From Brevinematales bacterium (GTDB lineage: Bacteria > Spirochaetota > Brevinematia > Brevinematales > GWF1-51-8), in NCBI GenBank assembly GCA_020059465.1, contig JAGVBZ010000027.1, forward strand, positions 1 to 64,000: DNA of 64,000 nt, in the 5' to 3' direction. The notes under the pieces are model-generated. The model saw nothing but the letters and a program-made list of their open reading frames with translations. It had not been told where the DNA came from and searched no databases. The position numbers and the translations under genes are program-made. Positions 29,187-59,934 of the stretch are shown here, one piece after another. The first letter of the stretch is position 1, and each line of letters opens with the position of its first letter.

Positions 29187-30101
29187 ATGCCGTTTGCTTT
29201 AGATTATGAAAACAACTCGATCACAGTAAAAAGCGAGAACGTAATGTCACTATGGAGTCTTCTTAAGGAATTGGTTGACACTCCGTATCTGAAAAGCTAC
29301 GTGATTGAGAATTACGAAGGCGGAAACACTTTAGTACCCCGTTCCGCATGGGAAGACGACGGTGTGATGTACCGTGAAATATCGGAGGATATATTTCTAT
29401 TTCCCTATGAATCCATCGGGTTTATTCTGGACGATACCGTAAATAATGTCGATATCTATGTGATCGATAATTATTCTGCTGGTATGAATTATAAAACTGA
29501 TTTTCTTGTCTCGTTCACTGTCAGGAATGTCGATCGGTTTACCATGAAAATGCGCGATCGTTCTAAGATTTCCTATATTCTCGCATATTATCTGCTCTCA
29601 TATATGAAAATGAATTTCGACACCGGATTTGTTTATACGTTCGAAATGCTGCTTCGATCGTCGGTAAGTTTTAGAAAACAGGTATTCGAACTCCTTCCCT
29701 CGACAGTTACATTAGGTTTGAGTGAAATGCAATTTGTTCTGAGAACTACCGACGATAATAATAAAACCCAGTTCGTCCAGTTAGTTTGCGGAAAAAAATG
29801 TAAAAAACGTATTGTCAGTGAAAAAGAAATCGTCAATCTCGGTTATATAAAAAAAAAATTATTTAGTCAGATAGTTCTGCTGAAATATCTATACTATTCA
29901 CTCCTCGCGGCTTTGCCATTCGGGTTATATTTTCTGATGGAAAAAGTACTGAAGATCAGTAAAATAAGAGTGTTTCTCATCTTCGGGGTTTTTATACTTA
30001 TAATAATCGGAAAGTTTATCTATTCGATATACAAAAGAAAGAATATCTTTAAACACTATTCGAAAAAGATACAATTGGAGCAATTTAAAGAGGAAACCTA
30101 A
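29187..30101 (+). CDS. Unrecognised protein with two C-terminal membrane helices
   Basis: I do not recognise this 304-residue protein. About 225 soluble residues (mixed alpha/beta, opening MPFALDYENNSITVKSENVM) are followed by two membrane helices (about 233-251 and 258-278) and a short basic tail, so the large domain and the tail are on the same side, probably the cytoplasm since there is no signal peptide. Ribosome site CTGGAG. Its stop codon overlaps the ATG of the 7TM chemoreceptor-like gene by one base, so the two products are made together and may form a complex; that is inference from coupling only. Confidence 0.75.
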   Translation: MPFALDYENNSITVKSENVMSLWSLLKELVDTPYLKSYVIENYEGGNTLVPRSAWEDDGVMYREISEDIFLFPYESIGFILDDTVNNVDIYVIDNYSAGMNYKTDFLVSFTVRNVDRFTMKMRDRSKISYILAYYLLSYMKMNFDTGFVYTFEMLLRSSVSFRKQVFELLPSTVTLGLSEMQFVLRTTDDNNKTQFVQLVCGKKCKKRIVSEKEIVNLGYIKKKLFSQIVLLKYLYYSLLAALPFGLYFLMEKVLKISKIRVFLIFGVFILIIIGKFIYSIYKRKNIFKHYSKKIQLEQFKEET

Positions 30102-31957
30102 TGCAGCATTTGGGTATAAAAGTCAACACGTTCCTCAATTTTTCCTTATCGCAACTCGTCGTTGCATTCATGATATTTTTTCTTTTATCGGTGTTCTTTT
30201 TTCTCTATAACCGGCTGTCCGATAACGCGGTTTGGGAGCAGAAGAGTGAAATCAAACGGAATGTTCTATTTAGCGGATTTCTTACATTATTTTCTCTTTT
30301 ACAATTTATAATATTTTTCACTTCCAATCCGGTATTGTTATTCTGGCTGACAAAATTTCAGTACGCCCTCACGCCGTTATTTTTCCTGTTTCTTTTTATC
30401 GTTCTGTCTCATAATATCGAATTGAAGTATCAGAATACTCTAAGAACTGTCTTTTATATCACCGGCGGGATTTACGCAATTTTCGCAATTTTTTCCTTGT
30501 TTTCAAATCTATTATTGGATGTTCCAAAAACCCCTGACGCAGCAAACCCGATTATAATTACCCCTATATTTAGAACTGTTTACATGTTTTTACAGATTTC
30601 TTTTCTGTTCATTCAGGGTGTGACAGCTTTTTTCCTTGTTCGTTCAAATTTATCAAAAAACAAACGCTACTCCATGTTTGCCGCGCTCAGCGTGAGTTTT
30701 ATCGTAGTATTGCTGGATATTTTTATCAATCTAAAGGTCTTTAATATTCGCGTGTTTAACATCAGTTTTAGCGGTATTGTACTTGTCGAGCTTGTTGGCA
30801 CTATCACATTTTTTATCGAGTATTATTATTTTCAGGTAAATGTCCGGAAACAGGAAGGTTTATTATCCTCCATTCTGGAAAAGCTGAAAAATATAATTCA
30901 TAACGGTCAGTCAACCATTTATGACCTTCAAAAAGGTTCATCCGATATAAAAACTCTTTCAATCGAGATTCAGTCCAACGCTAAAGAAAACGAGCATTCA
31001 ATCGATGAGACATTAAACTATACCAATAATGAAAAATCGCATATCAAGAATTTTTCCACCATGGTTATCAGTAATATCAGTACTTTTGAAAATATTCTCG
31101 ACTCTATGATGGTACAGAATAAGAAAGTCGAGGATTTTTCCGTAATTTTTAAAAAAGTAATCGAAATAATCGAAGACATCTCTTCAAAGGGAAGAATTGT
31201 ATCCAGCGGTGTCGTCAATCTGAGTGCGGTTATCAAGGAAGCGAAGGAAAAAGCGATAGACAATCATGGAATTATTAACGAGATTCACACCCACATCAGA
31301 AACATTCAGAATGTTAATAAGACTATAGACAAAATCTCCGATGACGCGAATGTTCTTGCGATGAATGCAGCGATCGAGAGTGCGAATAATGCTGCGTTCG
31401 GCTCGGGTTTTATGGTCGTCGCGGAGGATCTTAAGGAGCTTTCCGTAAAAACAAAGCAGGAGACTGCTGAAATCGAGCAAATATTAAACTATTTGCAAAG
31501 AGATATCAATCTGGGCATCGATGCCGCGTTTAGCGTGATGGAATTTTTCTCCAAACTTGAAAACACAATCGATATCGTTTTTAATTATATTATCAATATT
31601 GTTGATCATACGAAGACTCTGATGGACGAGATTGAAAAGTCCAATGCCAGTCTTTCGTCACTTGTCGAGATAACATCTGAGATTGCATCCCACGGTATTC
31701 AGCAGAAGGACTTAAATAACGAACTAAACGAGAGTATTATCGAAGTCAAGTTTATGATAGAAAGCATACGCCGCGCTATGGAAAATGAAAAGGAGCTGAT
31801 TAAGAATTCCTTCCAGTTTTCGGAATTTATCAGCCAGTCGTCCAACACGAACGATATTTACACATTTGAATTGTATACGGTTTTTAACGAGATTCAGACG
31901 GAAATCCAGCAAACCGGAGAGGCAACTTCCAATTCGGATATGAAACTCGTAGAATAA
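30101..31957 (+). CDS. Methyl-accepting chemotaxis-like protein with seven N-terminal membrane helices
   Basis: 618 residues. Seven hydrophobic helices fill about residues 18-240 in place of the usual two helices with a periplasmic sensor. A long helical cytoplasmic region follows, whose hairpin tip reads DDANVLAMNAAIESANNAAF then GSGFMVVAEDLKELS, the divergent form of the chemoreceptor LLALNAAIEAARAGE-GFAVVA tip that binds CheA and CheW. There is no HAMP domain and I see no clear methylation motifs. So the protein probably senses a membrane-soluble or intramembrane signal and feeds a chemotaxis array, or a CheA-like kinase elsewhere. It is translationally coupled to the preceding unknown gene and its stop abuts the convergent gene. 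Confidence 0.83.
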   Translation: MQHLGIKVNTFLNFSLSQLVVAFMIFFLLSVFFFLYNRLSDNAVWEQKSEIKRNVLFSGFLTLFSLLQFIIFFTSNPVLLFWLTKFQYALTPLFFLFLFIVLSHNIELKYQNTLRTVFYITGGIYAIFAIFSLFSNLLLDVPKTPDAANPIIITPIFRTVYMFLQISFLFIQGVTAFFLVRSNLSKNKRYSMFAALSVSFIVVLLDIFINLKVFNIRVFNISFSGIVLVELVGTITFFIEYYYFQVNVRKQEGLLSSILEKLKNIIHNGQSTIYDLQKGSSDIKTLSIEIQSNAKENEHSIDETLNYTNNEKSHIKNFSTMVISNISTFENILDSMMVQNKKVEDFSVIFKKVIEIIEDISSKGRIVSSGVVNLSAVIKEAKEKAIDNHGIINEIHTHIRNIQNVNKTIDKISDDANVLAMNAAIESANNAAFGSGFMVVAEDLKELSVKTKQETAEIEQILNYLQRDINLGIDAAFSVMEFFSKLENTIDIVFNYIINIVDHTKTLMDEIEKSNASLSSLVEITSEIASHGIQQKDLNNELNESIIEVKFMIESIRRAMENEKELIKNSFQFSEFISQSSNTNDIYTFELYTVFNEIQTEIQQTGEATSNSDMKLVE

Positions 31958-32889: not shown

Positions 32890-34074
32890 ATGAAACAGAA
32901 AAAATTTTTTGAAAAATTCCTACAAAACATCACAAAAATCGATGAATTTAACCTAAAAAATATCATCGAGTTATTGGAATCCGAACGAAGGACATTCCAT
33001 GAGGTCCTCGACTGGTTAAGCGAAGGAATCATCGTATTTGAAAAAGAAAATGTTCTTTTTATTAATCAGGAGGCTCTTAATATTCTGCGCATTCCCCAGA
33101 CCGATTTTCCAGTAACATTTCAGGAACTTGAGAAAAATGTGTTCAATCGTGATCTATACAGCCTTATCCTTAAATCAAAAGAAAGCATAGGCACTTTATC
33201 CTACTCCGCTCAGAACTCCGGCGATATCATCGAGTACTACGACCTCGAATTCAGCGGGAGAGAGTTTCCAACCCGAATCCTGAAAATATGCGACTCAACT
33301 TCTCAGAAACAGTTGGAATTTCAGCTTAAAAACCTCGAGAGTATTGGCGCATTGAATACTCTTGCCGCAGGGATCGCCCACGAGATCAAAAATCCCCTCT
33401 CTGCTATCGATCTGCATACCCAATTGATCCGGAAGGGTATCGATAAGGGCATGATACAGGTTCCCGATGAAGTCTTGAGATATACCCAGATAATACAGGA
33501 AGAGACTAAACGTCTCAACAATATACTCAACGATTTCCTGATCTCGACCCGCAAACGGGAACTGAAACTCTCTTTTGCCGATCTCAATCCGTTTCTTAAA
33601 GAAGTGATCGGACTATTTCAGCCCGAGTTTGACCTTCATCAGATCAAGGTGGAGACGGATTTTGGTCATATTCACCGTATCTTTTTCGACAGGGATTATC
33701 TCAAACAGGCAATTGTAAATTTACTGAAAAACGCGATAGAAGCTATTGAAGAATCCCCTCAAAAAATCATCAGAATAAAAACTAAATATGATATAGGTAA
33801 GGATGCAATTCTAATCGAGATCATGGATTCGGGCGCAGGGATCAATAAAAAAGACCTTCATAAGATATTCGATCCCTATTTTACTACTCATGAAAACGGA
33901 ACCGGGCTTGGGCTTACCATAGTGTATAAAATAGTTAAGGAACACGGAGGGGAAATCGCAGTTGACAGCAGAAGTATAAATGAAAAATTCCGTATTCCGA
34001 AACCGCTGAACACAGTGTTTAGCATCATGATTCCCGCTAACCGCGGAACGAAGATGCTCCCCAAATCCGATTAA
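32890..34074 (+). CDS. Cytosolic PAS-domain histidine kinase (NtrB/AtoS type), orphan
   Basis: 394 residues with no membrane helix. A PAS-like sensor domain occupies about 35-135 (SEGIIVFEKENVLFINQEAL). The HisKA box is LAAGIAHEIKNPLSAI with phospho-acceptor His164. The ATPase domain has QAIVNLLKNAIEAI (N box), EIMDSGAGI (G1), FDPYFTTHENGTGLGL (F and G2 boxes). All catalytic motifs are intact, in contrast to the degenerate kinase at 58492. No response regulator is adjacent, so its partner is elsewhere. The first residues (MKQKKFFEKFLQNITK) are basic and amphipathic and might touch the membrane. Its stop overlaps that of the TPR gene. Confidence 0.92.
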   Translation: MKQKKFFEKFLQNITKIDEFNLKNIIELLESERRTFHEVLDWLSEGIIVFEKENVLFINQEALNILRIPQTDFPVTFQELEKNVFNRDLYSLILKSKESIGTLSYSAQNSGDIIEYYDLEFSGREFPTRILKICDSTSQKQLEFQLKNLESIGALNTLAAGIAHEIKNPLSAIDLHTQLIRKGIDKGMIQVPDEVLRYTQIIQEETKRLNNILNDFLISTRKRELKLSFADLNPFLKEVIGLFQPEFDLHQIKVETDFGHIHRIFFDRDYLKQAIVNLLKNAIEAIEESPQKIIRIKTKYDIGKDAILIEIMDSGAGINKKDLHKIFDPYFTTHENGTGLGLTIVYKIVKEHGGEIAVDSRSINEKFRIPKPLNTVFSIMIPANRGTKMLPKSD

Positions 34075-39818: not shown

Positions 39819-42800
39819 TTATTCTTCCTGCAGGAACCCTAGATTGTATAATTCCGATTTCTGGAAATGAGTGGGTTCTTTCTGGCCTTTTTCGCGTCCG
39901 TATATTCCGATACCCTTGATTTCATCCCCTTTAATAACAGGCACAATCATGATTTCCTCGAGACTTGCAAGATCGTCTATATCAAAACGGTCTCTGAGGT
40001 ACTGCGCCTTGGTTAAATCGCCGCGAATATCGAGACTCTTTTTACGGCTGAGGTATTTCACATATATCGGATCGTCCATAGAGAAAGATATTTCTTTTTT
40101 GAATCCATTATTCATCAGTTCGCCGAATTCTTCACCGGATTTCTTTACAACCGATATTTTCTTGAAATTTAGACTATTCTGGGCTACATCCATGGCAACA
40201 TCGGCATAGGATTCGACATGTCCAATCGTGCTGGTCTTAACCGGGGGTTCCATAAAGACTTTGTTAAAATCGATATGCTTCGCAGGCTCGATATCCTTCA
40301 ACACACTTTCCTTCACTGCCGGAGCTTCCCCGACTTCTGCGGGAGCAATTTCCACTGGTAATTCATCAGCCGTCACTGAAGATTCTGCGGGTGAAACCTC
40401 ATCATCGATATCAAGGTCGATCGCTGATAATTCGCTCATATCGAGAGTGATGCTATCGTCATCATCCGAACCGGATTCAGCAGAAGGAACATCCATGATC
40501 ATGGAGTCAAGATCGAATTCGGGGATATCCTGGCCTTCGGGCAAATCGAAATCGCTATCAACATCATTCAGCGGCTGTGCAGAAGCAGAAGGGTCTTCAG
40601 GAATCTCCAATTCCCCCAACGGTTCTTCTATCGCCGCATCGGAAATCTCAAGCGGTTCCTCAATTTCGACAAAATTTTCTTCCATAACCGATTCGGTCTG
40701 TTCTGCCTCTTCGGATAAATCGACATCAATGGCCGCCAGTTCATCCAGATCAAGGGTTATACTGTCGTCTTCCTCACTTGATAACGCATCAGGTACATCC
40801 GCAATCATCGAATCAATATCAATTTCAGGAATTTCCATTCCGGAAGTAATGTTTTCCAGCATATCTTCGTTTTCAGGAGTTTCCGCCGACGCGAATACAG
40901 GCACACCGTCATCAGATTCGTCAATAGGCGCTTTTTCCTGCGGTATCTCGAATTCATCCAAATCCATGGCGGGTTCCGAGGGTATCTCAATACTAGCCAT
41001 ACCGTTTGAGGATTCCGCCTCTACTTCATATTGCGAGATATCCTCGCTGGTATCCCCGGGAATTTCTATTTCTTGTGTTTCAGGTGTTTCCTCAGTCTGC
41101 ATAGCGCCCATATCGAACTCAGGTGTTTCTTCAGTCTGCATAGCGCCCATATCGAACCCAGGCGTTTCCTCAGTCTGCACAGCGCCCATATCGAACCCGG
41201 GCGTTTCTTCAGTCTGCATAGCGCCCATATCGAACCCGGGCGTTTCCTCAGTCTGCATAGCGCCCATATCGAACTCTGGTGTTTCCTCAGTCTGCATAGC
41301 GCCCATATCGAACTCGGGCGTTTCTTCAGTGATCACACCGCCAATCTGGAATTGGGGAGAATCATCGCCCGCAGCTTCACCCTCGGGTTCAATACTTGAC
41401 GAATCCTGGCCGAAATCAAAGTCCTGCCCGATGTCAGTCAGTGAAATTTCAGCAGAACCCGTCGGAGATGCTGCAGGTTCTTCTTCCACCGGCAGAGAAG
41501 CGGAAACTTCATCGAGCTGTCCGATCGAGTCCTCGTCGAATGTAACGATGTTTTCTTCTATACTACCTATTCCAGCCATCATATCTTCTTGCTTAATATC
41601 GCTCTCGTCTATCTCTTCTGAAAATGCAAAATCATCTTCATTTACAGAATCCATCTGAGGTTCTATCTCAGAACCGGTTAGTTCCTGAATTCCGGCATCC
41701 GAAGGAATTTCAACGTTTTCATCGATAATTAACTCGTTTTCGCTTTCGGATAGCATATCGAAAACAGGTTCGCCCGATTCTTTTGATAATTCGTCCGGTT
41801 CGGTCATCATATCGAACGAGAAATCCTCACCCGCAGGCGCCGCGTCAAATTCACCCTGATCTTCAACGCCTTGAAGGATTCTATCCTGCTCCGCAAACAT
41901 TTCCGTACTTGTGGGCTGAGGTTCTGCATCAAAAGAAGGCTCGCTCCATTCTGGAACAGCCGATTCTTCGGATGCAATAGGTTCATCAAATTCAGGGGCT
42001 GTAATTTCCTCGGGCATTTCGGGGGCTTCCCAATCCGGAATATCGGATTCTTCCTCAGACTCCAAAGAACCGAAACTTTCACGGGTAAACTCGGTTTCCC
42101 CCGGCGCTTCATACATCGACGAAGGAAGCTCGTCATCTTCGGATGCCGACCACTTTTCTGTAGACGGCATCTCAGTCAGATCGTCCGAACTGGACATAAT
42201 CATATGCTCGATACCGTTGCTTGCCACATTTTTGCTGTAGGGTTTATTCTGTTCGATATCCTCAACAAGGTCCTGAATCTCGTCGTTAGATGGAATACTG
42301 AATTTTTTCGACGGCGCTATAACTTCCTCGTCCATATCCTCTTCCATAGCCGAGAATTGCTCGTCGGCGGAAAAAGCCTTGGGTATATAGTAATTTTCCT
42401 CCGTGGCCTCACGTCCGGATTGGACAAGCGCGAAAACAAGTAATCCTAAGAGAATGATATTGATGATAATGAACAGAATTGCTTCCCATGGTAAAAACTG
42501 GTCGTCTTTTGCCATATGTACAATATTCAAACCCATCAGACGCGAAATAACTCCGATTGTCGGGCCCTTCGCAGGATCTTTGCTCTTCATGGTAGAAGGA
42601 GAATCGAAATAATTGATTATTTTATTTATTGAGTTTGTATCAACGTTCTTAGATGAAAGAAAAAGATAATTGTCCGCAGAGAATGGAATCATCAGATTTT
42701 TTTCATTGATTCCATTTAGCAGTCTTTCAGTCTTGTAATATAGAAATACATATCCTTGAGGAGGAGATTCCGGAGTACCATCATATGTCGGGTAAATAGA

Positions 42801-43271
42801 AATAAATTCGGAGTTGTTTACAAAATAATAGAACGGGACTTTTGCAGATGTGAAGTGAGTTTTTATTTCGGTTAGGAGCTGGTCTTTGATTTTTTTCGCT
42901 ATTATTTCAGATTCGACGGTTGAAAAATTTACAGTACCCGAATCATCGATAAGCTGAATCTTTTTACATGCTTTTATATGTTTTCTGATTTCTTCAAACT
43001 GGGGAATATATTGACGAATATCGTCTCCCATCGCCTGACTGAAGAAAACATTTTTAACCAGTTTTTCTTTCGCAAGAGTAGTCGCTTCCGTACTTACATC
43101 ATTGAGATTACTGACTATAGCGGCATTAATAGGCATCGTTTTATTCGATATGAAGTTATCGTAGGACTTACTGAAAATCCCCATACGATTGCGCGCGAAA
43201 TAGACAATCACAAACAGAGAGGCAATGGCAAAGACAAGTAAAACGATTAAGAGAATTCTCTTATATACCAT
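39819..43271 (-). CDS. Large membrane protein: extracytoplasmic sensor-like domain, acidic repeat linker, GAF-like C-terminus
   Basis: 1150 residues, not a named family. TM1 is at about 5-27 and TM2 at about 266-288. The 235 residues between them look like a Cache-type sensor (SNLNDVSTEATTLAKEKLVK, then QLIDDSGTVNFSTV and YVFLYYKTERLLNGI). From about 300 to 1010 the chain is highly acidic and probably disordered, rich in Glu, Asp, Ser and Pro. It includes six 13-residue repeats (core TEETPEFDMGAMQ) and two longer repeats around IPEIDIDSMIADVP/DDSITLDLDELAAID. The last 130 residues form a GAF-like domain (EEIMIVPVIKGDEIKGIGIY). No enzyme or methyl-accepting motif is visible. It follows nifJ behind a terminator, so probably has its own promoter. 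Confidence 0.8.
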   Translation of the reverse strand: MVYKRILLIVLLVFAIASLFVIVYFARNRMGIFSKSYDNFISNKTMPINAAIVSNLNDVSTEATTLAKEKLVKNVFFSQAMGDDIRQYIPQFEEIRKHIKACKKIQLIDDSGTVNFSTVESEIIAKKIKDQLLTEIKTHFTSAKVPFYYFVNNSEFISIYPTYDGTPESPPQGYVFLYYKTERLLNGINEKNLMIPFSADNYLFLSSKNVDTNSINKIINYFDSPSTMKSKDPAKGPTIGVISRLMGLNIVHMAKDDQFLPWEAILFIIINIILLGLLVFALVQSGREATEENYYIPKAFSADEQFSAMEEDMDEEVIAPSKKFSIPSNDEIQDLVEDIEQNKPYSKNVASNGIEHMIMSSSDDLTEMPSTEKWSASEDDELPSSMYEAPGETEFTRESFGSLESEEESDIPDWEAPEMPEEITAPEFDEPIASEESAVPEWSEPSFDAEPQPTSTEMFAEQDRILQGVEDQGEFDAAPAGEDFSFDMMTEPDELSKESGEPVFDMLSESENELIIDENVEIPSDAGIQELTGSEIEPQMDSVNEDDFAFSEEIDESDIKQEDMMAGIGSIEENIVTFDEDSIGQLDEVSASLPVEEEPAASPTGSAEISLTDIGQDFDFGQDSSSIEPEGEAAGDDSPQFQIGGVITEETPEFDMGAMQTEETPEFDMGAMQTEETPGFDMGAMQTEETPGFDMGAVQTEETPGFDMGAMQTEETPEFDMGAMQTEETPETQEIEIPGDTSEDISQYEVEAESSNGMASIEIPSEPAMDLDEFEIPQEKAPIDESDDGVPVFASAETPENEDMLENITSGMEIPEIDIDSMIADVPDALSSEEDDSITLDLDELAAIDVDLSEEAEQTESVMEENFVEIEEPLEISDAAIEEPLGELEIPEDPSASAQPLNDVDSDFDLPEGQDIPEFDLDSMIMDVPSAESGSDDDDSITLDMSELSAIDLDIDDEVSPAESSVTADELPVEIAPAEVGEAPAVKESVLKDIEPAKHIDFNKVFMEPPVKTSTIGHVESYADVAMDVAQNSLNFKKISVVKKSGEEFGELMNNGFKKEISFSMDDPIYVKYLSRKKSLDIRGDLTKAQYLRDRFDIDDLASLEEIMIVPVIKGDEIKGIGIYGREKGQKEPTHFQKSELYNLGFLQEE
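41081..41314 (-). repeat. Six tandem 39-base repeats inside the coding sequence
   Basis: Six contiguous 39-base units start at 41081, 41120, 41159, 41198, 41237 and 41276, with a partial seventh to about 41330. They differ by a few substitutions each and code for 13-residue units with the core TEETPEFDMGAMQ (variants PGFDMG and GAVQ). Units stay in frame, so copy number can change without breaking the protein. Confidence 0.95.
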
Positions 43272-56022: not shown

Positions 56023-56709
56023 TTATTTCCCGATATCGAAGGAGAAATATTTCGAGGCCTCCCCCATGACTTCTGTATATGCATATTTTTCAGGCAGATA
56101 GAATACCGGCTTTTTATTGTTTTCTATCAGGAAATAGCCGTACTTATTGGAAACAAATCCGAGGGTGGGTTTCATGTACTCGCTCAAGTCGAAAGCATAT
56201 GCGGGATACTTCGGATCCCCAATTTTCACGCACTTTTCAGTACCCTCTTTCACATGAGCTATATATACCGTATTCTGGTTCACATTCGCCTTAGTATCCA
56301 TAATCACCCTCACCCACTCGATGTTTTTCGATTTTGATTCCATCCCGGGATTCTTCGGTTCGTAGAATACTATTATCCTCCAATGATTATCCTGCGAAAC
56401 CGGTTCTTTTCTGATTGTCGCGGAATAGATCCATCCATAGGTATCATCCGCAAACCGTTTAACTTTCACCCAGTTCGTATTGAAATCGATGCAGCGAATA
56501 TTAATGGCTGTCAATATTTCGCTCTTTTCACCGAAATAAATAACTTTTTCACCTTTTTCCAGTTGGGTGATCACCTTACTGTCCAATCCGGGAGCCTCGC
56601 GGAAACTTACGTTTTCCACCCATGTGTAATAAGCTTCGGGTTTGGCGCATCCGTTTACTGAGATGACAACGCTTATTACTGCAGAAAGAACCATAACGAA
56701 TGTTTTCAT
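56023..56709 (-). CDS. Lipoprotein with SH3-like domain and a shared novel domain (family copy 1)
   Basis: 228 residues. Signal peptide with a lipobox ending VNGC (Cys21), so lipid-anchored. An SH3-like segment occupies about 28-97 (ENVSFREAPGLDSKVITQLE then WVKVKRFADDTYGWIYS). The rest (about 105-225) is the domain shared with the next two genes: IIVFYEPKNPG, CVKIGDPKYPAYAFDLSEYM, GFVSNKYGYFLIENNKKPVF and ASKYFSFD. I know no named family for it. It is the last gene of a three-lipoprotein operon, nine bases after copy 2. Confidence 0.83.
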   Translation of the reverse strand: MKTFVMVLSAVISVVISVNGCAKPEAYYTWVENVSFREAPGLDSKVITQLEKGEKVIYFGEKSEILTAINIRCIDFNTNWVKVKRFADDTYGWIYSATIRKEPVSQDNHWRIIVFYEPKNPGMESKSKNIEWVRVIMDTKANVNQNTVYIAHVKEGTEKCVKIGDPKYPAYAFDLSEYMKPTLGFVSNKYGYFLIENNKKPVFYLPEKYAYTEVMGEASKYFSFDIGK

Positions 56710-56718
56710 TTTATCCCC

Positions 56719-57837
56719 CTATCTGTTAGTTTTCCCGAAATTCTTAATATCAAGTATTTCCTCATCCAGTTTTATCTGGTAATACCCCTCAATCATTTTC
56801 TGATATTCCTGATTCTCCATGACGCGGATATAGATAGGCGTGTTATTTCTATAGAAAAAGAAGAAGCCGGGACGATAGAAAAATCCGGAAAGATGATAAA
56901 AATTCGTCAGTGCTAATGTTAAATTCCCGCTCACGGCGGATTTAAGAACAACCGACCCCTCGTTCCGCGAGTTCGCCTGAAATACTGGTATACCCGCCTT
57001 TCCCGCAAGCATTATCATCTCATCGGACGCTGTTACCCATAGATCGTTGGTTTCTTCCGGATGGGGATTATACGCGATAATAAAACGCTGGAAATTCTGA
57101 AATATTTTTTGCAGTTCGGGAGTAACATACCCGCCGCTTGAAAACACATCGAAATAATTGTAGACCGCTTGTACATCGCTGTCCGATTCAATATCGAGGG
57201 GAATAAATTTGGGCTGCTTTCCCAATTCGATAACCAGATACCCGGGTTTAGTATTCGAAAACCCGTAGTCTTCCCTGAGATAGAGACTAATCAAAAGGGA
57301 TCCGGACGGGAAAGGACCGTCCCCAATTGGAACGCAGTCAGGTGTCGCCCCCAAATCCTGCGCACGGTCGACTATCTTATAATAAATACCGTACTGTTTG
57401 AACGAATCCATCGATGAGACCAGCGCATCATGAATAGTGGAGGTGTTATAGTTCGAATACCCGTTGATAAACTGATTATATCCGATAACGATTTTATCAT
57501 ACACAGGCAGAACGATCTTCTGAGTCGAAAGAGTTCCGCCGTGAACCCACCCGATCTTTCCATCCATCTTCCTGATGACCTCATACCACGGTGAATTAAA
57601 CTCCTGACAACGATAGATCATATCCATATTAATGTTGGAAAACTTCCCTGTATAGACAAGTTCCTCGCCTACTCTCAGTTTCTCGATTACGGCGGATTGA
57701 ATAGAGGGTTCCTTCTGGAGGTTTACTGTTATCCATGGATAGCAGATAGTATTGGATAAGGAATTTCCGCTTCCGGTACCGTTTCCTCCGCATCCGACGA
57801 TTAAAAGAAGTAAAAAAATAAGCAGAATATTTTTCAT
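56719..57837 (-). CDS. Lipoprotein with SH3-like domain and two copies of the shared novel domain (family copy 2)
   Basis: 372 residues. Signal peptide with lipobox LIVGC (Cys16). An SH3-like segment follows at about 33-105 (TVNLQKEPSIQSAVIEKLRV; WYEVIRKMDGKIGWVHGG). The first domain copy (about 110-235) has IVIGYNQF, DCVPIGDGPFPSGSLLISLY, GFSNTKPGYLVIELGKQPKF and VYNYFDVF, clearly related to copy 1. The second (about 245-360) opens FQNFQRFIIAYNPHPEETND, related to copy 3. So the protein looks like a fusion of the other two architectures. Its start overlaps the end of copy 3 by four bases. Confidence 0.83.
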   Translation of the reverse strand: MKNILLIFLLLLIVGCGGNGTGSGNSLSNTICYPWITVNLQKEPSIQSAVIEKLRVGEELVYTGKFSNINMDMIYRCQEFNSPWYEVIRKMDGKIGWVHGGTLSTQKIVLPVYDKIVIGYNQFINGYSNYNTSTIHDALVSSMDSFKQYGIYYKIVDRAQDLGATPDCVPIGDGPFPSGSLLISLYLREDYGFSNTKPGYLVIELGKQPKFIPLDIESDSDVQAVYNYFDVFSSGGYVTPELQKIFQNFQRFIIAYNPHPEETNDLWVTASDEMIMLAGKAGIPVFQANSRNEGSVVLKSAVSGNLTLALTNFYHLSGFFYRPGFFFFYRNNTPIYIRVMENQEYQKMIEGYYQIKLDEEILDIKNFGKTNR

Positions 57838-58370
57838 TGGACCTTTTCCTGATTAGTATTGTAAAGATCTATAGAGAAAAAACGATTCATCGCAAGACCA
57901 GCGTCCAGCCCGGACTTGTCCACAAAAAACAAATTATAACCGGTATCCGATGAATTCGGATACCCCACTAAGATATAACCTTTTTTTGAGGTTAGTCCTG
58001 CCGATTCGAGCAGAAGCGGTGTAATATCCAGCAGGTGCTTTCCTATTTTCGCCGATTTCGGATTCTTAACACTGAAAAAAGCTATTTTATGCTCGCTCAA
58101 ACCAACCGAAAAAAATTCGTTATCGTAGAACCATCTCTGATCATTGACGTTTTCCGGGTCGTATGCGATCACAAGCTGAATATAATTAGAATATATCTTC
58201 TCTAAAACCCTATCCAAATCGGGATTTTTCGTTTCCCTGTCATCGACATAATAGTCATGCACCATGAATGAATCTTTTTTATTAGTCGAGACGCCCTGCG
58301 AACCGTTTTGCCCGCCCTGCGCGCATGAAATAATAATTATTAAAACAAATGCCATCAAGAATAGCCGCAT
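57834..58370 (-). CDS. Small lipoprotein of the same family, without SH3 domain (family copy 3)
   Basis: 178 residues. Signal peptide with lipobox IIISC (Cys16), then a Gly/Ser/Gln-rich linker. A single domain follows: YSNYIQLVIAYDPENVNDQRW, IAFFSVKNPKSAKIG, LTSKKGYILVGYPNSSD and MNRFFSIDLY, in the same order as in the other two proteins. The cysteine of CVxIGD is missing in this copy. It is the first gene of the operon, behind promoter 58388-58415, divergent from the degenerate kinase gene at 58492. Confidence 0.8.
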   Translation of the reverse strand: MRLFLMAFVLIIIISCAQGGQNGSQGVSTNKKDSFMVHDYYVDDRETKNPDLDRVLEKIYSNYIQLVIAYDPENVNDQRWFYDNEFFSVGLSEHKIAFFSVKNPKSAKIGKHLLDITPLLLESAGLTSKKGYILVGYPNSSDTGYNLFFVDKSGLDAGLAMNRFFSIDLYNTNQEKVQ

Positions 58371-58387
58371 AAATCACCTCAGTAAAT

Positions 58388-58415
58388 ATTATATCGAAGA
58401 ATTGAAAAAATTCAA
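58388..58415 (-). promoter_or_regulatory. Sigma70 promoter of the three-lipoprotein operon
   Basis: On the minus strand TTGAAT (58415-58410), 16 bases, TATAAT (58393-58388), 17 bases from the start codon. The -35 lies within a small inverted repeat, ATTGAA-AAAA-TTCAAT. Confidence 0.6.
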
Positions 58416-58426
58416 TACTTTTACTA

Positions 58427-58454
58427 TTGCGCTATTTTTTTTTATTTTTATAAT
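58427..58454 (+). promoter_or_regulatory. Possible sigma70 promoter of the degenerate kinase gene
   Basis: TTGCGC (58427-58432), 16 bases, TATAAT (58449-58454), 37 bases before the ATG, in a T-rich tract. It is divergent from the lipoprotein promoter with only 11 bases between the -35 boxes. Confidence 0.5.
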
Positions 58455-58491
58455 TTCATTATACTAATAATACTTAAAAAGAGCGGAAAAC

Positions 58492-59934
58492 ATGAAAATT
58501 CCAGAAATCTTTATTAATCCGTTAAAAAAACTCACCCCTGCCGAAAGGGGGGAGTTTCAATCCAAGATCAATTCGGAAAATATGAAAAGGCTTTTCTGGC
58601 TGAATATCATCGTTGCACTGATGACGCTTGCGCCGGTTATCAGTATTATCCTATTTCAGTCGAAGGGGCAATGGAGCGATTCCCCGGTATATTATTATTA
58701 CCTTATGCTTTATATTTCCAGAATTATATTCTGTTTGTCGATTACCCTGATATCGTTTATTTTTCTGAAGAATCCGAATAAAATGAACCGCTTATCGCGG
58801 ACTCTCATTGCATGGGTATTTGCCGGATACTTTATTCTTGACGGATGCGCAAATAGTATTATGGTGCAGACCCTTCAGGGCGGGATAACGGTATATGTTA
58901 TCGTGGTTCTCGTTATTTCAACCGTTCTATACTATCCCATTGTCTTTAATAGTATTCTTCTCACGGCGGGATACCTCATTCTTTCATTCGGCATCCTCCT
59001 AATTCAACCCAATACCCGGCTGATTATCGGCGATATTATTAACGCATCTTTCACAACTTCTGTCGGGTGGTTTATCTCTCGGATGCTTTTCCGGTCGAAA
59101 GTTACGGATTATATCAATCATCTGACAATCAGGAAACAAGCTCAGGAACTGGAATACGCAAATTCTATATTGCAGACTAATGCAGAAGATCACTCATCCA
59201 AACTGGAAAACACCCATAACAGGCTTCATGATGAAGTACGAAAAAAGATCTCTTCCGAAAAACGAATCAAACGTTATCATGATGATCTGCAGGAAGTTTT
59301 CCGTGTCTCATTTTTCTTTCTCAAAGTTCCGCTGCAGAAGGTTATTTCTTATTTCAACCATCTGGTGGAAAACCCTGAAAAGATCGAACCGGATAAGGGG
59401 TCGTTTATTATCTGTCTTGACGAGATCAGAAAGGCCGAGCGCTCACTGCTGATTCTGCTCGATAATATAGGGATTTATATGAACGAAAACCCTTTTTCCC
59501 CGGTTGACCTTAATTATGTACTGGAGCAGGTTATTGAAAACAACTCCTTTGAAATCAGGGAAAAGAAACTGGATATTAAGCTTTCCAAACTTCCTGTAAT
59601 AATGGGGGATAAGCACCAGTTTTTCCGGCTCTTCCAGGGATTTATCGAGTATAGTGTCTGCGGGGAAAATATTCTTCCATATCCTGAGATTCATTTCGGG
59701 TATGAATCCTCCGATGGAATTATACAGTTCTATGTCCAGACCAATAAGCCTATTTCGGACATCGATGCGCAGGGGATTTTTTCTATCGAGCATCTGCTGA
59801 CGATGGGGGAGCATGGAAATTCAGTCAACCTGACCGGTTGCAAAAGAATTATCGAGCATCACGGTGGAGAGATGTGGATAGAAAGCGGAAAAGAACCGGG
59901 AGTGCGAATCGGGTTCACCCTTCCGAAACCCTAA
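58492..59934 (+). CDS. Membrane pseudo-histidine kinase (catalytic motifs lost)
   Basis: 480 residues. About six membrane helices fill residues 34-200, then a coiled coil (about 205-262) and a histidine-kinase module. The module aligns with the phytochrome-like kinase class (ending HHGGEMWIESGKEPG and GFTLPKP), but the key residues are gone: the phospho-acceptor His is Phe274 (VSFFFLKVPL for VSHDLKAPL), the N-box asparagines are Gly383 and Tyr387, the D-x-G-x-G box reads TNKPI, and the second glycine box reads GNSVNL. The frame is intact and the fold-forming hydrophobics are kept, so it is a maintained pseudo-kinase, not a decaying gene. It likely acts as a ligand-bound scaffold or partner. 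It is divergent from the lipoprotein trio. Confidence 0.85.
   Translation: MKIPEIFINPLKKLTPAERGEFQSKINSENMKRLFWLNIIVALMTLAPVISIILFQSKGQWSDSPVYYYYLMLYISRIIFCLSITLISFIFLKNPNKMNRLSRTLIAWVFAGYFILDGCANSIMVQTLQGGITVYVIVVLVISTVLYYPIVFNSILLTAGYLILSFGILLIQPNTRLIIGDIINASFTTSVGWFISRMLFRSKVTDYINHLTIRKQAQELEYANSILQTNAEDHSSKLENTHNRLHDEVRKKISSEKRIKRYHDDLQEVFRVSFFFLKVPLQKVISYFNHLVENPEKIEPDKGSFIICLDEIRKAERSLLILLDNIGIYMNENPFSPVDLNYVLEQVIENNSFEIREKKLDIKLSKLPVIMGDKHQFFRLFQGFIEYSVCGENILPYPEIHFGYESSDGIIQFYVQTNKPISDIDAQGIFSIEHLLTMGEHGNSVNLTGCKRIIEHHGGEMWIESGKEPGVRIGFTLPKP

Follow-up and report, generated by a model that had tools for sequence, protein, structure and literature searches.

A conserved histidine kinase homologue with an open frame, a six-helix membrane domain and no catalytic motifs in Brevinematales

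Can a membrane histidine kinase that has lost the residues of its chemistry still be a maintained gene and, if so, what could it do? The question is raised by an open reading frame in a 64,000-nucleotide stretch of Brevinematales DNA (the window; genome G000 below). A sequence-only reading had proposed that every catalytic motif of this kinase is gone, that fold-forming residues remain in an undamaged 480-codon frame, and that the product is a kept pseudo-kinase with six membrane helices, serving as sensor or scaffold and perhaps forming one envelope-sensing system with three divergent lipoprotein genes. The gene and its parts are listed here.

58492..59934 (+): pseudo-histidine kinase frame, 480 aa; orthologues in G002 (C40, 66% identity) and G003 (C22, 40%)
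58492..59196 (+): N-terminal six-TM sensor domain, aa 1-235, including the start of the signalling helix (AlphaFold pLDDT 90.5)
59107..59265 (+): signalling helix or coiled coil, aa 206-258 (alignment and model); its TI-x-x-Q-x-x-E-L motif is common to many other fusions
59266..59481 (+): DHp-like two-helix dimerisation domain, aa 259-330 (model m84743bfb3ad7, Foldseek)
59314..59319 (+): F275-F276, replacing the phospho-acceptor His and the next Asp (H in 36/36, D/E in 35/36 intact relatives)
59494..59931 (+): CA (HATPase_c-like) domain, aa 335-480 (sub-threshold Pfam match; Foldseek matches HK853, ZraS, DivL, RetS)
59638..59652 (+): degenerate N-box, G383..Y387 for N..N (N in 36/36 intact relatives)
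59740..59754 (+): degenerate G1 box TNKPI, one residue deleted (D-x-G-x-G in relatives; G003 keeps D-T-G)
59815..59832 (+): degenerate G2 box GNSVNL, where relatives have G-x-G-x-G-L; all three orthologues share S444 and N446

Catalytic motifs and fold of the kinase half

The frame begins with an ATG, has a plausible ribosome-binding site and contains no internal stop. Its sole Pfam match was to the tail of HATPase_c (aa 436-479, E 5e-4), which at 21.0 bits missed the required gathering score of 26.4; HisKA found no match in it. A phmmer search against the PDB aligned residues 258-478 with the bacteriophytochrome kinase 8f71 (E 4e-7), placing the phospho-accepting His opposite a Phe. The C-terminal half was then compared in an alignment of 39 rows, made of the three pseudo-kinase orthologues and 36 intact kinases from the same phylum. 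The intact kinases keep the His and both N-box Asn without exception, and the G boxes in nearly all cases. The orthologues read F/F/F at the His and F/Y/Y at the following acid, G/G/G at the first N-box Asn and Y/Y/F at the second, and have S-x-N (444, 446) for the G-x-G of the second glycine box, where all intact rows have G. The G1 box is T-N-K-P in the G000 copy, with one residue deleted before the Pro, and D-T-G-V-I in G003, which alone still has the D-x-G. Since the most divergent orthologue (locus L033) thus retains part of the G1 box, the catalytic motifs must have gone in more than one step; its D-x-G may allow residual nucleotide binding in G003.

The G000 protein has thus lost His 275 (F), the next acid (F), N383 (G), N387 (Y) and K390, along with D417 (T), G420 (P), G444 (S) and G446 (N), which are conserved in essentially all 36 intact rows. 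At 12 positions altogether, a residue kept by 85% or more of the intact rows is missing from the three orthologues. Because most of these are catalytic while fold positions are kept (P280, L323, D373, F430, L447, G459, G470, P478), the losses are selective, and both the motif loss and the survival of fold-forming residues claimed by the sequence-only reading held in the full alignment. Misplacement of the motifs was ruled out, as the profile alignment and the structure model agreed with their placement.

An AlphaFold model of residues 215-480 (pLDDT 86) comprised a complete two-helix DHp and an alpha/beta CA domain. Foldseek matched it to HK853, ZraS, DivL (4q20) and RetS (6dk7) with E-values of about 1e-12 to 1e-10; HK853 scored E 9e-13 and ZraS TM 0.70. 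In a maximum-likelihood tree the three pseudo-kinases grouped together with 100/100 support, their long stem nested among intact kinases. The pseudo-kinase is therefore derived from intact spirochaetal kinases.

The DHp is also where the protein is best conserved: identity to the G003 orthologue is 50% there, against 42% in the CA domain and 37% in the membrane part. It holds 14 residues that do not vary among the three orthologues and hardly occur in intact kinases, among them K283, H290, E311, N325 and a Phe patch at 274-275; the CA domain, twice as long, holds 12. The HisKA-type phosphatase positions are lost as well, and the residues present predict a protein devoid of autokinase and phosphatase activity. 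The docking residues of DivL are R553 and Y562 (PMC4211667). At these positions the pseudo-kinase retains a basic residue, K278 (+3), and a Tyr, Y287 (+12), a suggestive fit with binding of a response regulator or a kinase partner.

Purifying selection on both halves of the protein

A search of 100 relatives, then of 393 genomes of the phylum Spirochaetota, found full-length orthologues only in two congeneric genomes, G002 and G003. Both are syntenic and open and, in the comparison that the sequence-only reading had put forward, equally dead at the His and N-box: the His site reads VSFFYLK and VSFFYIK, and the N-box Asn are gone in both. The His and N-box losses therefore predate the species split. 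A fourth member of the genus, G001, has no copy; its absence there is uninformative because the genome is 73% complete and the flanking suhB and dehydrogenase orthologues are missing too. With three orthologues from one genus, the conservation covers a narrow clade.

Selection was measured by NG86 dN, by maximum likelihood for the G000-G002 kinase pair and by codon-position counts. For that pair dN was 0.23, far below a saturated dS, and the ML dN/dS was about 0.09, a ratio only approximate since synonymous sites are saturated. Differences reached 0.58 at third codon positions versus 0.22 at first and 0.18 at second positions, with a similar asymmetry across N-domain, linker, DHp and CA. In neutral simulations at 0.23 substitutions per site the frame acquired a mean of 8.8 stops and never zero, versus none observed in the three orthologues; the C-terminal half alone stayed free of stops in 1.3% of runs. 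Both halves of the pseudo-kinase are thus under purifying selection in the three species, as the dN/dS comparison suggested by the earlier reading would have it for a kept gene. The stop simulation and the codon-position asymmetry rule out a decaying pseudogene. The protein evolves faster than its neighbours (66% vs 78-96% identity), which is compatible with partly relaxed constraint.

The six-helix membrane domain and the neighbouring lipoproteins

In the AlphaFold model the N-terminal part forms six long helices, in line with the six of the sequence-only reading, joined by short loops; the last continues as an exit helix directly into the signalling helix. Residues 1-235 matched no Pfam or NCBIfam family, and Pfam MASE profiles matched none of 20 members of the domain. 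The domain was found in 44 of the 393 Spirochaetota genomes and in 24 of 168 genera, attached to SpoIIE phosphatase, GGDEF, class III cyclase and MCP signalling outputs, to PAS with intact HisKA/HATPase_c, and to hybrid kinases with receiver and Hpt domains. Four members consist simply of the six-TM part and a kinase whose motifs are intact, so that among fusions of this kind the dead kinase stands out as an exception.

Foldseek likened the six-TM model to the membrane domains of two human adenylyl cyclases, AC8 and AC9 (probability 0.80-0.98, TM 0.46-0.66), and, with a lower probability (0.54), to AC5; E-values were 0.4-2 overall, none significant. As the domain had no sequence match among PDB entries, this likeness is a lead only. 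An earlier proposal (PMC4821796) links six-TM cyclase anchors, spirochaetal ones included, to CqsS receptor kinases. It is conceivable, if rather doubtful, that an adenylyl-cyclase-type receptor domain, represented here by the six-TM region, became attached to many output classes across Spirochaetota and was joined in this genus to a fully dead histidine kinase, now a pure protein-binding receptor that might control an intact kinase or the SpoIIE phosphatases with paralogous six-TM domains.

Loci with the domain are 58492-59196 of the window and L016, L026, L030, L035, L038-L042, L049, L057, L059-L061, L068 and L101-L116. One of them, L042 (G056:C6:124000-138000), presents a local expansion: three large proteins, each with this six-TM domain ahead of PAS or hybrid-kinase modules, are encoded within about 10 kb of one another.

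The lipoprotein genes lie on the other side of a short intergenic region.

56023..56709 (-): lipoprotein 3, 228 aa, SH3_3 (Pfam)
56719..57837 (-): lipoprotein 2, 372 aa, SH3_3-like just below threshold (Pfam)
57834..58370 (-): lipoprotein 1, 178 aa, no family
58371..58491 (no strand): intergenic region from which the lipoprotein operon and the pseudo-kinase gene diverge; no better conserved than other intergenic regions

All three products have lipobox signal peptides by eye, so "three novel lipoproteins" was right as to lipoproteins and too generous as to novelty, since one passes Pfam SH3_3 and another falls just under it. Likewise, the 11 bases said to separate the two -35 boxes are correct as arithmetic (TTGAAT, 58415-58410, minus strand; TTGCGC, 58427-58432, plus strand), but the plus-strand box matches at only 3 of 6 positions and was not listed by the scan. 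The orthologues do adjoin the lipoproteins in 3/3 genomes, but so are all other neighbours over 16 kb conserved (DUF4015, dehydrogenase, cNMP-binding, glutaredoxin-like, suhB, pheA, HDOD and scpAB genes); because all flanking genes are equally syntenic, the adjacency does not discriminate. Across the 121-bp intergenic region G000 and G002 share 81% identity, 29 bp of it in one unbroken stretch; the G003 sequence aligns poorly. As a control, two other intergenic regions were 82% identical, the one upstream of the DUF4015 gene having a 34-bp identical run. A shared operator for the divergent pair was therefore rejected, the 29-bp block not standing above other intergenic regions, and inverted repeats in the region were rejected as an operator, being AT-rich and not conserved to G003. 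Elsewhere in these genomes, paralogues of the lipoproteins sit beside unrelated genes and not beside six-TM sensors. The proposed single envelope-sensing system thus found nothing beyond adjacency to recommend it, and a functional link between pseudo-kinase and lipoproteins is possible but unsupported.

The genes at 56023-57837 belong, with loci L117-L123, to an SH3_3-type lipoprotein family. Each genome of this genus carries several of its paralogues, and some of these paralogues lie beside a conserved NAD-epimerase-like / MBL-fold / lipoprotein cluster. Further off in the window, a 39-bp tandem repeat of 6.4 copies (41080-41330) lies inside the frame 39819-43271 (-), where it encodes EETPEFDMGAMQT-type repeats; these are part of a long acidic region that follows a membrane segment at the N-terminus.

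Proposed function and comparison with known systems

The protein combines a histidine-kinase fold and lost catalytic residues with an intact gene conserved in its orthologues. Of the properties of an active histidine kinase it has the DHp and CA fold, and lacks the His-D/E pair, the N-box, the G1 and G2 boxes and a passing Pfam score. Fold, orthologue conservation and selection accordingly agree with the earlier idea of a kept pseudo-kinase with six membrane helices. We consider it probably a DivL-like pseudo-histidine kinase, that is, a six-TM receptor that keeps the DHp and CA fold, performs no phosphorylation and acts through dimerisation or partner binding. The six-TM domain would sense a membrane or lipophilic cue, which would move the exit helix, be passed on by the long signalling helix to the dimeric DHp and alter how the DHp surface is offered to a partner. 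The remodelled DHp surface (the F274-F275-F/Y276 patch, K283, H290, E311 and D324-N325) would bind a partner, presumably a response regulator or an intact kinase, and this partner might be held, released or allosterically switched, as by DivL with DivK~P/CckA or by RetS with GacS. There is no partner gene adjacent to the pseudo-kinase. Two candidates lie in the same window: a membrane protein that ends in an MCP-like region (30101-31957) and, nearby, a soluble histidine kinase whose His, N and G motifs look intact by eye (32890-34074).

Other roles for the dead half can be imagined. It could be a structural dimerisation stalk, the signal passing within the membrane through heterodimers with six-TM SpoIIE phosphatases; each pseudo-kinase genome does encode one or two such phosphatases with the same six-TM type (G000:C17; G002:C1 and C25; G003:C3). 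However, their six-TM domains are distant from that of the pseudo-kinase (about 19% identity) and do not group with it in the tree, and the CA domain, superfluous in a mere stalk, is nearly as conserved as the DHp, which makes this unlikely. We hold it just as unlikely that the pseudo-kinase and the lipoproteins are co-regulated from a shared divergent promoter region as one envelope-sensing system: against their arrangement in all three genomes and the 29-bp block stand the general synteny, the equal conservation of other intergenic regions, the poor alignment in G003 and the separate paralogues described above, and the pseudo-kinase has no large periplasmic domain with which to bind a lipoprotein.

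Phosphotransferases with degenerate CA domains exist, ChpT being one, and H290 (+15, helix 1), invariant in the three orthologues and absent from the 36 intact relatives, might similarly take phosphate from another kinase in a relocated, Hpt/ChpT-like domain. That only three sequences carry this His, displaced by about four helix turns and with no known phospho-His context conserved around it, leaves the idea very improbable. There is equally little to be said for a recently inactivated gene drifting toward loss: its faster evolution and the progressive loss of G1 from G003 to G000/G002 would fit, but the His and N-box were already gone when the species split, stops are missing from all three orthologues and the codon-position asymmetry is strong in both halves.

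To our knowledge, few conserved natural pseudo-histidine kinases have been described, DivL being the best-known model. The pseudo-kinase presented here is more completely inactivated than DivL (His, next acid, both N-box Asn, G1 and G2), yet conserved, and therefore separates the scaffold function of the histidine-kinase fold from nucleotide chemistry. Its six-TM domain is of wider import as a sensor module that neither Pfam nor NCBIfam contains and that is present in about one tenth of the Spirochaetota genomes searched. Being common to cyclases, phosphatases, diguanylate cyclases, chemoreceptors and kinases, it offers a natural swap series for finding what adenylyl-cyclase-like membrane domains sense.

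With the intact HisKA/HATPase_c kinases of Spirochaetota (e.g., G000:C25, L036) the protein shares common ancestry and about 17-28% identity over DHp and CA. In having six TM helices without large loops that lead into a signalling helix, it resembles receptors of the AC/CqsS type (Rv1625c/Cya, mammalian ACs; PMC4821796, PMC9433096, PMC11606603), and its six-TM family is also fused to class III cyclases in Spirochaetota; unlike in those receptors, the outputs of the family are far more varied, and the likeness comes with the high Foldseek E-values and lack of PDB sequence match given above. Like MASE1, MASE2 and MASE3, the domain is an N-terminal polytopic sensor on interchangeable cytoplasmic outputs, but it has no Pfam MASE match.

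LvrB was dropped as a spirochaetal precedent for a pseudo-kinase; the available part of its description presents a Rec-controlled kinase with an activation mechanism (PMC13269768). Non-catalytic signalling of one histidine kinase on another is known from RetS of Pseudomonas (PDB 6dk7), which is also a fold match, and from a ChrS variant that, though inactivated, continues to promote signalling by its paralogue HrrS (PMC9491836). RetS differs in being a hybrid kinase with a different sensor domain, and the ChrS variant in being a laboratory frameshift and no conserved natural family. In Caulobacter, DivL uses its Tyr-bearing DHp to sense DivK~P and to control CckA, and needs no kinase activity for this (PMC4211667). 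Like DivL (PDB 4q20), the pseudo-kinase keeps the histidine-kinase fold, has an aromatic residue for the phospho-His, is expected to have neither kinase nor phosphatase activity and presumably binds a response regulator or a kinase through its DHp. DivL has a Tyr, PAS domains and a CA domain in which weak binding of an ATP analogue persists, whereas the protein described here, 12% identical to it, has a Phe, a six-TM sensor and N- and G-boxes that are lost as well.
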